A DNA stretch of 15,509 nucleotides. Origin: Lachnospiraceae bacterium. GTDB lineage: Bacteria; Bacillota; Clostridia; Lachnospirales; Lachnospiraceae. Shown here piece after piece: positions 1 through 15,509 of this stretch. Numbering within the stretch: the first letter of the stretch is position 1; each line of letters begins with the position of its first letter. Under the pieces are notes generated by a model. It ran no database searches. It had not been told where the DNA came from and was given only the letters and a program-made list of their open reading frames with translations. The position numbers and the translations under genes were made by a program. The stretch lies in the NCBI GenBank assembly GCA_900764225.1, contig CAAFNG010000183.1:1-15509 (forward strand), in the 5' to 3' direction.

Positions 1-52
1 CATACGAGATTCCTCTACGTCTCGTGGGCTCGGAGATGTGTATAAGAGACAG
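1..52. other. Illumina Nextera i7 adapter remnant (not genomic)
   Basis: Bases 1-10 match the end of the P7 arm, 11-18 (TCCTCTAC) occupy the i7 index slot, 19-33 are the Nextera read-2 segment, and 34-52 are the 19-bp Tn5 mosaic end AGATGTGTATAAGAGACAG. From memory, the index is the reverse complement of GTAGAGGA (Nextera N712). This is library sequence left on the contig; genomic DNA starts at base 53. Confidence 0.98.
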
Positions 53-3222: not shown

Positions 3223-4764
3223 ATGAGTAAAAAACCAACAGTATTAATGATCCTTGATGGTTACGGACTGAATGACAGACATGACGGAAATGCTGTATAT
3301 GAAGCAAAAACACCAGTCATGGACGGACTGATGAAGGATTATCCTTTTGTAAAGGGTAATGCAAGTGGTCTCGCAGTAGGTCTTCCGGATGGCCAGATGG
3401 GTAACTCCGAGGTTGGACATATGAACATGGGTGCAGGCCGTATCGTATATCAGGAGCTCACAAGAATCACAAAAGAGATCCAGGATGGCGATTTCTTCAA
3501 GAACGAGGCACTTCTCGCTGCAATGAAGAATGCAAAGGAGAACGACTCCGCAATCCATTTCATGGGACTTCTTTCTGATGGTGGTGTACACAGTCACAAT
3601 ACACATCTCTACGGACTGCTTGAGATGGCTAAGAGAGAAGGACTTAAGAAGGTTTACGTACACTGCTTCCTTGACGGACGTGACACACCGCCTGCATCAG
3701 GTAAGGAATTCGTAGAGCAGCTGGAAGCCAAGATGAAAGAGATCGGCGTTGGTGAGATTGGTGTGATCTCCGGACGTTACTATGCAATGGACCGTGATAA
3801 CCGCTGGGATCGTGTTGAGCTTGCATACAAAGCTCTTACAGAAGGCGAGGGCGTAAAGGCAACAGATGCCGTGGCAGCAGTTCAGGCTTCCTATGATAAT
3901 GATAAGACAGATGAGTTCGTTCTTCCGACGGTTATCGAGAAAGACGGTAAACCGGTTGCAACTGTTTCCGATAAAGATTCCGTTGTATTCTTTAACTTCC
4001 GTCCTGACCGTGCAAGAGAGATCACAAGAGCTTTCTGTGATGATGATTTCAAAGGCTTTGAAAGAGCAAAGAGACTGGATACTACTTTCGTATGCTTCAC
4101 AGAGTATGACGATACGATCCAGAACAAGCAGGTAGCTTTCCACAAGGTACTACTTCATAACACATTTGGCGAGTATCTTGCAGCTCATAACATGACACAG
4201 GCACGTATCGCTGAGACTGAAAAATATGCACACGTTACATTCTTCTTCAACGGTGGTGTTGAGGAGCCGAACAAGGGAGAGGACAGAATCCTTGTAAAAT
4301 CCCCGAAGGTTCCGACTTACGACATGCAGCCTGAGATGAGTGCACCGGAGGTTTGTGAGAAGCTTGTTGAGGCAATCAAGTCTGAGAAATACGATGTGAT
4401 CATCATCAACTTTGCGAACCCGGATATGGTTGGACATACAGGTGTTGAGGCAGCTGCTGTCAAGGCTGTTGAGACTGTTGATGAGTGTGTAGGCAAGGCT
4501 GTAGAGGCAATCAAAGAGGTTGACGGACAGCTCTTTATCTGTGCTGACCACGGTAACGCAGAGCAGCTTGTAAACTACGAGACAGGAGAGCCATGGACAG
4601 CTCATACAACCAATCCTGTACCGTTCATTCTTGTAAATGCAGATCCGAAATATACACTTCGTGAGAACGGATGCCTTGCAGATATCGTTCCGACACTGAT
4701 CCAGCTTATGGGAATGGAGCAGCCAGAGGAAATGACAGGAAAATCTCTTCTTGTTGAGAAATAA
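3223..4764 (+). CDS. gpmI: 2,3-bisphosphoglycerate-independent phosphoglycerate mutase
   Basis: 513 residues, full family length. It interconverts 3- and 2-phosphoglycerate in glycolysis and gluconeogenesis through a phosphoserine, using two Mn ions. All key residues are visible: Asp12 in ILDGYG, the phosphorylated Ser62 in MGNSEVGHMN, DGRD at 151-154, FNFRPDRAREI in the substrate-binding part, Asp401 and His405 in NPDMVGHTG, and Asp442-His443 in ADHGNAE. Late in the protein TAHTTNP gives the last metal histidine. These match the Geobacillus stearothermophilus numbering to within two residues. I chose ATG 3223 because AAGGGG lies 7 nt upstream and homology begins there; an in-frame TTG at 3196 would add nine non-family residues. 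The gene has its own promoter and a strong terminator, so it is monocistronic. Confidence 0.98.
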   Translation: MSKKPTVLMILDGYGLNDRHDGNAVYEAKTPVMDGLMKDYPFVKGNASGLAVGLPDGQMGNSEVGHMNMGAGRIVYQELTRITKEIQDGDFFKNEALLAAMKNAKENDSAIHFMGLLSDGGVHSHNTHLYGLLEMAKREGLKKVYVHCFLDGRDTPPASGKEFVEQLEAKMKEIGVGEIGVISGRYYAMDRDNRWDRVELAYKALTEGEGVKATDAVAAVQASYDNDKTDEFVLPTVIEKDGKPVATVSDKDSVVFFNFRPDRAREITRAFCDDDFKGFERAKRLDTTFVCFTEYDDTIQNKQVAFHKVLLHNTFGEYLAAHNMTQARIAETEKYAHVTFFFNGGVEEPNKGEDRILVKSPKVPTYDMQPEMSAPEVCEKLVEAIKSEKYDVIIINFANPDMVGHTGVEAAAVKAVETVDECVGKAVEAIKEVDGQLFICADHGNAEQLVNYETGEPWTAHTTNPVPFILVNADPKYTLRENGCLADIVPTLIQLMGMEQPEEMTGKSLLVEK

Positions 4765-9920: not shown

Positions 9921-10541
9921 TTACCGACAAAGCTCCACAAGATCCATAGGCATGTTGATCCGAAAATCAGGATCAGAAACCTCACCAAATCCGTATTTTG
10001 CGAAGATAAAAGGTACTCCGGCTTTTTTGCAGGCGTTGAAATCTCCCAGGGTGTCACCTACGTATACCGGATCCTTAAGGTCATAGTCATTGCGGATCTT
10101 CATGATATTTTCTGCTTTGGCCATACCGGTATCTCCCGGACAGAGATGCCCCTTAAAGTAGTGACCGAAGCCTGTGGCCTTGAGAAATACTTCAATATAG
10201 CCAGCCTGGCAATTGCTGACGATAAAGAGCGGAAAACGAGTGGAGAGGATCTTAAGTGTATCCTCAAGCTGTGGATAAAGCGGGGCACATTTGCGAAGCA
10301 GGGCTTCGTGCTCTGCCTGGCAGCAGCCATCGATGATGCGAAGCTGCTCAGATTCCGGAAGTTCCGGAAAAAGAGCCCTGGCAATGTCCGGAAGAAGCTG
10401 GCCGAAAAGTCCCATCAGCCGTTTGGAGCTTACGTCAGTGTCCATGTGCTCTGTATGAATAAGATAATCGCGCCAGGATTCAGCTACGATTCCGGTGGAA
10501 TCCCAGAGCGTACCGTCAACGTCAAAAATGATGCTGTCCAT
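9921..10541 (-). CDS. HAD superfamily phosphatase (phosphoglycolate phosphatase-like)
   Basis: 206 residues with all four HAD motifs: Asp7 and Asp9 in FDVDGTLWD, Ser109 in IVSNCQ, Lys142 in GMAKAENI, and Asp163/Asp167 in GDTLGD. An alpha-helical cap sits between motifs I and II (about 15-85). It is the Gph/PGP-type soluble phosphatase fold: phosphoryl transfer to Asp7, Mg dependent. The substrate cannot be assigned; phosphoglycolate is only the family default. ATG 10541 follows a full AGGAGG on the minus strand. It is the first gene of a two-gene unit with the MATE transporter (2-bp gap), an arrangement that could couple detoxification of a phosphorylated compound to export, though that is speculation. 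Confidence 0.92.
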   Translation of the reverse strand: MDSIIFDVDGTLWDSTGIVAESWRDYLIHTEHMDTDVSSKRLMGLFGQLLPDIARALFPELPESEQLRIIDGCCQAEHEALLRKCAPLYPQLEDTLKILSTRFPLFIVSNCQAGYIEVFLKATGFGHYFKGHLCPGDTGMAKAENIMKIRNDYDLKDPVYVGDTLGDFNACKKAGVPFIFAKYGFGEVSDPDFRINMPMDLVELCR

Positions 10542-10661: not shown

Positions 10662-10684
10662 AGAATTTGTGAGGTAAAAATAAT

Positions 10685-12415
10685 ATGAGATATAAAAATA
10701 CGGTCAGAGGTATTTTTAAGGACAGGCCAAACCGGTTTATTGCACATGTAGAGATTGATGGAGAAATCGAGACCGTTCATGTGAAGAATACCGGGAGATG
10801 TAGGGAACTTCTTGTTCCGGGCGTGGAAGTCATCCTTGAGAAGAGTGATGATCCGTCCAGAAAGACGAAATACGATCTGATCTGTGTGAATAAAGAAGGG
10901 CGCCTGATCAATATGGATTCCCAGGCACCCAATAAAGCTGCCGAAGAGTGGGTGGCAGCCGGAAAATTTTTTACGGAGAAGGTCACAGTACAGCGGGAAA
11001 AAAACTACGGGAATTCCAGATTCGATCTGTATGTGGAATCCTCTGCACGCAGGGCTTTCATTGAGGTTAAGGGTGTCACCCTGGAGGAAAAAAATATCGT
11101 ACGTTTTCCGGATGCGCCTACAATACGCGGGGTCAAGCATCTGGAAGAGCTGATAAAGGCTGCATCGGATGGCTATGAAGCTTATCTTCTTTTGGTGATC
11201 CAGATGAAGGATGTGAAATATTTTGCACCAAACTGGGGGACACATCCGGAATTTGGAGATACCTTGCGAAGGGCGGCAAAAGCAGGCGTTCACATCCTGG
11301 CATACGACTGTGCAGTTAAAGAAGACACCATGGAGATCTGTGATCCGGTGCCGGTAGATCTGGAACGGCCGGAGGTGTCTGCTCTTTTGAAATGGTATGA
11401 TGCGAATAAGCGGAGCCTGCCGTGGCGGGATCAGAACAATGCCTATTATACCTGGGTGTCGGAGATCATGCTTCAGCAGACAAGAGTAGAGGCTGTGAAG
11501 CCATACTTTCAGCGTTTTATTCAGGAACTGCCTGATGTTGCAGCCCTTGCAGCGGCACCGGAGGACCATCTGGTCAAGCTCTGGGAAGGTCTTGGCTATT
11601 ACAGCAGAGTCCGCAATATGCAGAAAGCGGCCATTTCTGTGATGGAAGATTACGGAGGCAGGATTCCCGAAGATTTTGAAACGCTTCTCTCGTTAAAGGG
11701 AATAGGACGTTATACAGCAGGTGCCATCTCGTCGATCGCCTACGGGAAGTGCGTTCCGGCAGTGGATGGCAATGTTCTCCGGGTATATGCAAGACTTACG
11801 GAAAATCGTGAAGATATTATGAAACAGTCAGTCCGGAAATCCGTAGAGGACAGCCTGAAAGAGATTATGCCGCTGGACAGACCCGGAGATTTTAATCAGG
11901 CTCTGATGGAGCTTGGAGCTGTAGTCTGCGTCCCCAATGGAAAAGCAAAATGTGAGGAATGTCCACTGAAAGAGTTTTGTCTTGCAAGAAAGCATGGAAC
12001 TGTGGAAGAACTTCCCGTAAAAGCACCGAAGAAGGCAAGAAAAATAGAGAACAGGACGGTTCTTGTGATCCAGGACGGAGCTGCAACTGCAATCCGCAGA
12101 CGTCCACCTGAAGGACTTCTTGCAGGGCTGTATGAGATTCCCAATGTGGAGGGATATCTTACCCGGAAAGCTGCTCTTAAGCTGGTGGAAGATATGGGGC
12201 TTGAGCCTTTAAGAATCGAGAAGCTGCCGGATGCGAAGCATATTTTTTCGCATATAGAGTGGAGAATGCATGCGTACCGCATTGCGGTATCATCCCTGGA
12301 AAAGGCAGAACATGCAGACTTTCTTTTTGCAGACAAAAAAGAAACAGACAGAAAATATACAATACCATCTGCGTTTAGCGCATACACGAAATACATGAAG
12401 GAGGAAAACCCATGA
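10685..12415 (+). CDS. SfsA-MutY fusion: PD-(D/E)XK nuclease-like SfsA joined to A/G-specific adenine glycosylase
   Basis: One uninterrupted 576-residue frame. Residues 1-228 are a complete SfsA protein (opening RGIFKDRPNRFIAHVEIDG; nuclease-like core Asp114 in RFDLYVE, Glu127-x-Lys129 in FIEVKGV). From about 232 a complete MutY follows: LPWR (245-248), catalytic Glu260 in SEIMLQQTRVEAV, helix-hairpin-helix LKGIGRYTA (337-345), Asp361 in AVDGNVLRV, and Fe-S cysteines 415, 423, 426 and 432. The C-terminal MutT-like domain carries the FSH loop (521-523) that reads 8-oxoguanine. MutY removes adenine opposite 8-oxoG; SfsA is named for sugar fermentation stimulation and described as a DNA-binding, nuclease-like protein. 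The linker is only a few residues. The first cysteine pair is spaced C-x7-C rather than the x6 of E. coli. An internal SD-like GGAGGTG (11371) precedes an in-frame TTG (11387). The stop overlaps the next ATG. Confidence 0.95.
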   Translation: MRYKNTVRGIFKDRPNRFIAHVEIDGEIETVHVKNTGRCRELLVPGVEVILEKSDDPSRKTKYDLICVNKEGRLINMDSQAPNKAAEEWVAAGKFFTEKVTVQREKNYGNSRFDLYVESSARRAFIEVKGVTLEEKNIVRFPDAPTIRGVKHLEELIKAASDGYEAYLLLVIQMKDVKYFAPNWGTHPEFGDTLRRAAKAGVHILAYDCAVKEDTMEICDPVPVDLERPEVSALLKWYDANKRSLPWRDQNNAYYTWVSEIMLQQTRVEAVKPYFQRFIQELPDVAALAAAPEDHLVKLWEGLGYYSRVRNMQKAAISVMEDYGGRIPEDFETLLSLKGIGRYTAGAISSIAYGKCVPAVDGNVLRVYARLTENREDIMKQSVRKSVEDSLKEIMPLDRPGDFNQALMELGAVVCVPNGKAKCEECPLKEFCLARKHGTVEELPVKAPKKARKIENRTVLVIQDGAATAIRRRPPEGLLAGLYEIPNVEGYLTRKAALKLVEDMGLEPLRIEKLPDAKHIFSHIEWRMHAYRIAVSSLEKAEHADFLFADKKETDRKYTIPSAFSAYTKYMKEENP

Positions 12416-13428
12416 AACTTTTGAGCGTAGCAATACCATGCTATAATTCAGAGGCTTATATGTCAAAATGTATCAATTCCCTGCTGATCGGAGGAGAGGA
12501 AGTGGAGATCATCATCGTAGATGACGGCTCCAGCGACCGTACCGCTGAGATCGCAGATGAATATGCAGAAAAATATCCGACTATCGTAAAGGCAGTCCAT
12601 CAGGAAAACGGAGGACACGGACAGGCTGTAAATACAGGTATCCGCAATGCCACAGGTCTTTATTTCAAGGTAGTTGACAGTGATGACTGGGTAAACCAGG
12701 ATGCATACTATGAGATTCTGAAAACTCTTTATGAGCTGACACGTGGGTCTGAGACAGTTGATCTTCTGATCAGCAACTTTGTCTATGAGAAGCAGGGTGC
12801 TACCCGCAAGAAGGTCATGCAGTACAGACACTGCTTCCCGACCAATCAGATCTTTGGCTGGGATGAAGTGCGTCATATGAAAAAAGGCCAGTATCTTCTC
12901 ATGCATTCCATGATCTACCGTACCAAGCTTCTTTATGACTGCGGTATGGAGCTTCCGAAGCATACATTCTATGTAGATAATCTGTTTGCCTTTGAGCCAC
13001 TTCCATATGTGAAGAACCTTTATTATCTGGATGTGAATTTTTACAGATATTTCATCGGAAGAGATGATCAGTCTGTCAATGAGAAGGTCATGATCAAAAG
13101 GATCGACCAGCAGATCCGCGTGAACAAGCTTATGGTAGATGCTTATCTGAAAGCCAATGTAAGTAACCGCAGACTGCGTATGTATATGTTCAGCTATCTG
13201 GATATCATTACAACGGTTTCTTCCATCATGCTTGTAAGGGCAGGTACACAGGAGTGCCTGGATAAGAAACAGGAGCTGCAGGATTATATCAAAGACCAGA
13301 ATATGGGACTTTACCGGAAGCTCCGCAGAAGTCTTTTCGGAAGAGTTTCCAACCTTCCGGGAAAAGGCGGAAGAAAGATGTTTGTGGCAGCATATAAGAT
13401 CTGCCAGAAGTTCTACGGATTTAACTAA
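12412..13428 (+). CDS. Family 2 glycosyltransferase
   Basis: 338 residues with a GT-A domain at the N-terminus: LSVAIPCYNSEAYMSKCI, IIIVDDGSSD (Asp37-Asp38), ENGGHGQAVNTGIRNA, and the metal-binding DSDDW at 89-93. The C-terminal part (about 200-338) has no membrane helix, so the enzyme should be cytosolic or peripheral. It transfers a sugar from a nucleotide donor, presumably to a surface glycan or lipid acceptor; neither is known. ATG 12412 overlaps the mutY stop in ATGA and has GGAGG 7 nt upstream, so translation is probably coupled to the fusion gene. No glycan cluster surrounds it. It ends 9 bp before a strong bidirectional terminator. Confidence 0.92.
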   Translation: MKLLSVAIPCYNSEAYMSKCINSLLIGGEEVEIIIVDDGSSDRTAEIADEYAEKYPTIVKAVHQENGGHGQAVNTGIRNATGLYFKVVDSDDWVNQDAYYEILKTLYELTRGSETVDLLISNFVYEKQGATRKKVMQYRHCFPTNQIFGWDEVRHMKKGQYLLMHSMIYRTKLLYDCGMELPKHTFYVDNLFAFEPLPYVKNLYYLDVNFYRYFIGRDDQSVNEKVMIKRIDQQIRVNKLMVDAYLKANVSNRRLRMYMFSYLDIITTVSSIMLVRAGTQECLDKKQELQDYIKDQNMGLYRKLRRSLFGRVSNLPGKGGRKMFVAAYKICQKFYGFN

Positions 13429-15485: not shown

Positions 15486-15509
15486 CTGTCTCTTATACAC
15501 ATCTCCGAG
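15486..15509. other. Illumina Nextera adapter remnant (not genomic)
   Basis: The last 24 bases are the reverse complement of the Tn5 mosaic end plus CTCGG, the same read-2-side adapter as at bases 29-52. Together they mimic 24-bp terminal inverted repeats, but they are library sequence. Confidence 0.98.

Follow-up and report, generated by a model that had tools for sequence, protein, structure and literature searches.

Does one gene really encode both SfsA and MutY, two proteins that are normally separate, and if so, has the joint been kept because the two halves serve the same DNA? The question is raised by a 15,509-nucleotide stretch of Lachnospiraceae DNA (the window), in which a single forward-strand frame of 576 codons runs from an ATG at 10685 through a TGA ending at 12415 with zero internal stops. 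Domain profiles and relatives both mark this frame (10685..12415, +) as an SfsA-MutY fusion gene. A candidate ribosome-binding site, GAGG, can be read from the sequence 10 nt 5' of the ATG (10671..10674, +).

An earlier note on this DNA had proposed that complete SfsA and MutY proteins share the frame, and a domain search bore this out, with all matches over curated cut-offs. By Pfam and NCBIfam, SfsA is complete within residues 1-216, and MutY, also complete, starts at residue 233. Within the SfsA half, an N-terminal OB domain occupies residues 14-77 (10724..10915, +; PF17746, E 5.3e-25, 87.7 bits against a cut-off of 25) and a PD-(D/E)XK-type domain residues 80-214 (10922..11326, +; PF03749, E 2.4e-48, 163.9 bits against 22.8), and TIGR00230 scored 191.9 bits (cut-off 126.45). 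The MutY half comprises an HhH-GPD domain at residues 258-390 (11456..11854, +; PF00730), four Fe-S cysteines (11927..11980, +), and a C-terminal NUDIX-like domain at residues 458-569 with an IFSH loop at 520-523 (12056..12391, +; PF14815, E 3.6e-23); PF00730 and PF14815 exceeded their cut-offs, as did TIGR01084 with 324 bits (cut-off 286.5). When solved structures were searched with phmmer, those of MutY matched over residues 233-531 and those of SfsA over residues 10-225. Rather than being a stand-alone protein of ~230 aa, the SfsA half is thus a fused variant within a 576-aa frame.

The residues named earlier as catalytic proved to be in place and invariant. The SfsA motif in the PD-(D/E)XK fold (D114, E127 and K129) was unchanged in 106/106 SfsA rows, 55 of them fused, and the domain aligns with the E. 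coli (4dap) and P. furiosus (4da2) SfsA structures. Likewise E260, Tyr343 and D361 in the HhH-GPD domain, the cysteines C415, C423, C426 and C432, and F521 and H523 of the FSH loop did not vary in 121 MutY rows. Tyr343 stands where we take endonuclease III to have its lyase lysine, which agrees with the earlier view that the MutY half is not an efficient lyase. The first two cysteines (11927-11953) are both aligned in 121/121 rows, with seven residues between them.

An assembly or sequencing artefact that joined two genes is hardly credible. Exact copies of a 19-base sequence, which we take to be a transposon-library adapter, occur near both window ends, at 34-52 (-) and 15486-15504 (+), with none expected by chance. 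They indicate that the contig ends hold unremoved adapter, but they lie ~3 kb and ~10 kb away from the fusion gene. Residues 225-240, where a stop or frameshift would have betrayed a false joint, contain neither: the representative that we examined of a 100%-identity cluster (49 members), a near-identical database protein, has the same joint and reads through, with an E-to-D difference there. A relative at 82% identity has the same architecture. Among the best 120 of 7994 scored database relatives, the SfsA plus MutY domain set was found in 120/120. The best 80 related loci, from a scan with one genome per species, comprised 50 fused loci, 12 with adjacent sfsA and mutY, and 18 with mutY but without sfsA in the locus (SfsA lies elsewhere in 7 of these 18 genomes and is absent from 11), so the two genes are not always separate in relatives. 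The SfsA-MutY fusion is genuine, with both active sites intact.

An AlphaFold2 model, made from 39 fused sequences, has both halves folded, with a mean pLDDT of 90.2 and a pTM of 0.61. By these scores the model is confident within each domain, though not about how the domains are arranged. A predicted linker (residues 222-231; 11348..11377, +) separates the SfsA half, whose last strand spans 215-221, from the MutY half, whose first helix spans 231-241. Foldseek comparison of the model retrieved MutY-DNA complexes (TM by target ~0.9), E. coli SfsA 4dap (0.93) and, at 0.88, the DNA-bound P. furiosus SfsA 4dav. Junctions measured in 54 fusions were 15-69 codons long; that of the window, at 15 codons, is tied for shortest (one of two), and 28/54 are exactly 17 codons, many of them from closely related genomes. 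GGAGG precedes an in-frame TTG at the window joint. An internal start releasing a separate MutY was considered and rejected as a general device, a signal being present at 5/54 junctions versus 5.9% of windows drawn at random from these genes.

The same architecture was found elsewhere in Lachnospiraceae. A survey of 299 genomes of the family found SfsA in 155 and MutY in 209; MutY without SfsA occurred in 85/299, and SfsA without MutY (E 1e-60) in 31/155. MutY at E 1e-60 was present in 124 of the 155 SfsA-bearing genomes (70/78 plus 54/77) versus 85 of the 144 SfsA-free ones (Fisher odds ratio 2.8, p 9e-5, ignoring kinship and draft gaps). When coordinates were compared by eye, the 124 genomes with both comprised 31 in which the genes are fused, 2 with an interrupted fusion, 19 with the genes as neighbours on one strand, 67 unlinked (most with sfsA and mutY on different contigs of draft assemblies) and 5 unplaced (SfsA position not among the matches listed). 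One of the 31 fused genes, in G212, is cut by a contig end, leaving 30 complete. The two genes are therefore linked in 52/124 genomes, which we judge to be much more than two genes among thousands would show by chance. The two interrupted fusion genes, L133 (G055) and L184 (G321), are broken within MutY or SfsA, through decay or assembly error.

The earlier note had suggested a search for loss of stand-alone sfsA and mutY. Second copies were sought in genomes of relatives rather than in the window's own genome, and in 19 of 20 fused genomes examined SfsA and MutY each gave just one match above the cut-off, both within the fusion. The twentieth, G008, has two fused copies. Of the 30 genomes with complete fusions in the family survey, one, G087, has a second SfsA match (position not among the matches listed). 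The second copy in G008 contains ambiguous bases, has a MutY half 96% like that of L018, and is perhaps from a mixed assembly.

Beyond the family, SfsA was present in 209/391 genomes at class level and 229/398 at phylum level, and no SfsA frame of at least 500 aa was among the matches listed for either draw (longest 484). The class draw included a fused Lachnospiraceae genome, G072, whose row was not among the matches listed. For 70 SfsA genomes from the class-level list, MutY exceeded the cut-off in 15 and none did so in 55; the positions listed for the 15 genomes with both gave no sfsA-mutY adjacency. The fusion is thus recurrent and, among the matches listed, so far found only in Lachnospiraceae. 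SfsA itself occurred in 7 of 14 control genomes (E. coli, Caulobacter, Synechococcus, Thermus, Thermotoga, Haloferax and Sulfolobus).

Trees of the two halves call for several changes between fused and not fused. The first trees needed 8 for MutY (121 rows) and 4 for SfsA (106 rows), and careful subset trees at the fewest 8 and 6, respectively, with gains and losses indistinguishable in all these counts. A single branch separated the fused rows from all others in 0% of the 200 bootstrap trees of the subset. The subset consisted of the window, 45 chosen loci and ten database proteins, but not P0002, which is almost identical to the window. Rows left out as genome repeats were L081-L110 except L081, L091 and L108, together with L111, L113, L114 and L115; also left out were L163 (a fused gene, not a separate one) and the MutY half of L133 (interrupted, with too short an aligned part). 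Fusions recur in the trees and fill whole clades, and MutY rows without SfsA (L072, L075, L078 and L079) nest among fused rows, which indicates that the partnership can be lost. Pair and fusion have switched several times in the family, the direction of the switches being inferred.

One such switch is close at hand. The window, the fused P0003 and the two-gene locus L126 of genome G310 form one group with bootstrap 100 in both trees. G310, the nearest genome relative of the window, keeps this gene order but has sfsA and mutY in separate frames. Five of its frames agree in size, strand and order with those for the glycosyltransferase, mutY, sfsA, HAD hydrolase and MatE of the window; the three other than mutY and sfsA were matched by size and position only. 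Since the window groups with an unfused, syntenic relative, the switch between two genes and one at this locus is recent and separate from the large fused clades. In two other fused proteins, P0008 and P0009, the SfsA half and the MutY half belong to different clades, owing either to recombination between fusions or to chimeric assembly. Both halves are under purifying selection: dN/dS in four fused-fused pairs was 0.045-0.094 (SfsA half) and 0.046-0.095 (MutY half), and comparison of the window with the unfused L126 gave 0.075 and 0.069, respectively.

The TGA of the fusion gene overlaps by 4 nt the ATG of a family 2 glycosyltransferase (12412..13428, +; PF00535). A glycosyltransferase lies directly downstream on the same strand in 67/81 loci including the window, and 14 of these have no sfsA there, so that sfsA is the part that comes and goes while the mutY locus is stable. 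The upstream neighbour is a divergent HAD-family hydrolase (9921..10541, -; PF13419), as in 12/81 loci including the window. A tblastn search at E 0.01 for SfsA remnants at mutY loci without adjacent SfsA found none in 18/18; the L069 alignment started at fusion residue 176. Promoter and terminator scans showed no excess over shuffles, and Rfam and tRNA scans of the window returned nothing.

What might hold the two halves together? The reading that we favour, at a probability of roughly 55%, is a two-headed protein that came from an sfsA-mutY gene pair joined in frame and was kept because the join brings SfsA to the same DNA as MutY, or in the same dose. In its favour are the domain and fold matches, the invariant active sites, the purifying selection on both halves, the recurrence in the trees, the synteny with the unfused pair of G310, and the linkage and co-occurrence of the two genes. 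The C-terminal half would be an ordinary MutY that, like its family, removes adenine opposite 8-oxoguanine. The N-terminal half would be a catalytically intact SfsA, which from its family may be expected to bind DNA and probably to cut nucleic acid with a metal ion. The accessible part of one report (PMC1189080) describes non-specific DNA binding by E. coli SfsA and assigns SfsA a PD-(D/E)XK nuclease motif and an OB fold by prediction, and strand cleavage by SfsA is not reported in it. The further step that SfsA works on or near DNA processed by MutY we consider less likely than not; direct handover of the MutY product to SfsA is possible, and a repair role for SfsA is putative. Counting against this explanation are the genomes that have SfsA without MutY or MutY without SfsA, the loss of the partnership in trees, and the pTM of 0.61; against processing of the MutY product by SfsA there are also the AP endonucleases of the fused genomes (below).

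Overlapping neighbour genes can fuse without benefit, and a neutral operon fusion, in which an overlapping sfsA/mutY pair loses a stop or shifts frame while the halves stay independent, with unrelated tasks and a harmless join, has an appreciable chance of being correct, if not an even one. The mutY-frame ATG precedes the sfsA stop in 9/9 Blautia-type pairs inspected (L052, L053, L054, L056, L057, L058, L060, L061 and L064), which would make fusion easy. The loose linker length across the 54 fusions and the commonness of SfsA without MutY in the class draw fit this account, as does the joining of SfsA to a HAD-family hydrolase in one frame in a class-level draw genome (L176 in G448, 449-1903, +), a fusion that does not support the repair reading. 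Against it stand the recurrence of fusions that fill whole clades, the prevalence of the 17-codon junction, albeit largely among relatives, and the linkage of the genes in 52/124 genomes.

More specific roles for SfsA are less probable still. SfsA could be a nuclease of the 8-oxoguanine pathway, such that the fused protein would remove adenine and its SfsA half would cut or hold the same site, in hosts mostly without canonical MutM; we consider this doubtful, but if true, the fusion would reveal the pathway in which the SfsA family works, a family found from E. coli to archaea. Replacement of MutM by the fusion was examined and rejected, Fpg exceeding the cut-off in 3/40 fused, 0/19 adjacent and 3/21 other MutY genomes. 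Over the 80 MutY-bearing Lachnospiraceae this makes 6 above the cut-off, with 12 more below it (18/80 at E 0.001); Fpg is scarce in every architecture, so its scarcity is a trait of the family and not tied to the fusion. OGG-type glycosylases were present at 7/7 loci fetched, three from fused genomes, the loci having been chosen from among the weakest rows of the MutY search. Least probable of these roles, and very unlikely, is that SfsA stands in for Nfo or Xth and makes the AP-site incision after MutY. The absence of the lyase lysine from the MutY half (Tyr343) and the nuclease motif in SfsA would suit such a role, but Nfo exceeded the cut-off in 35/40 fused genomes, Xth in 36/40 and at least one of them in 40/40 (of 50 fused genomes known), and replacement of the AP endonucleases was rejected. 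At L193 (3435-5540) in G249, a single 130-aa frame separates SfsA (5540-4842, -) from an Fpg/MutM gene (3435-4319, +), and mutY is on another contig.

We found no description of an SfsA-MutY fusion in the open literature that our search covered, most subscription papers and preprints being outside that coverage, and the accessible parts of PMC1189080, PMC3135505, PMC2743648 and PMC1839093 do not mention one. Database names shown for fused relatives give MutY alone ('A/G-specific adenine glycosylase'), a label that hides the SfsA half in gut bacteria. SfsA is widespread, yet in the accessible part of PMC1189080 it is credited only with binding DNA non-specifically and, by prediction, with a nuclease fold. 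Its recurrent fusion to an enzyme of one known substrate offers a concrete and cheap hypothesis for its function, and the repeated switching between pair and fusion makes a good test case for its role.

Compared with known systems, the window protein shares with MutY (9bs2, 6u7t) the HhH-GPD domain, Fe-S cysteines, catalytic Glu and Asp, NUDIX-like domain, FSH loop and TIGR01084 match; it differs in having a whole SfsA at its N terminus and in the spacing of its first two Fe-S cysteines, which in E. coli MutY is presumably six residues instead of seven. With SfsA of E. coli (4dap) and P. furiosus (4da2, and 4dav with DNA) it shares the OB and PD-(D/E)XK fold, the D/E/K motif and the TIGR00230 match, but those proteins are separate chains of ~230 aa, whereas the window's SfsA is joined to a DNA glycosylase. 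A parallel to the arrangement is a frame in one genome only (L179 in G211, 720-2384, +), in which the partner is not SfsA but a hypoxanthine-DNA glycosylase (TIGR04274, above its cut-off); it likewise places a DNA-repair enzyme at the MutY N terminus, in frame, and so favours the repair reading.
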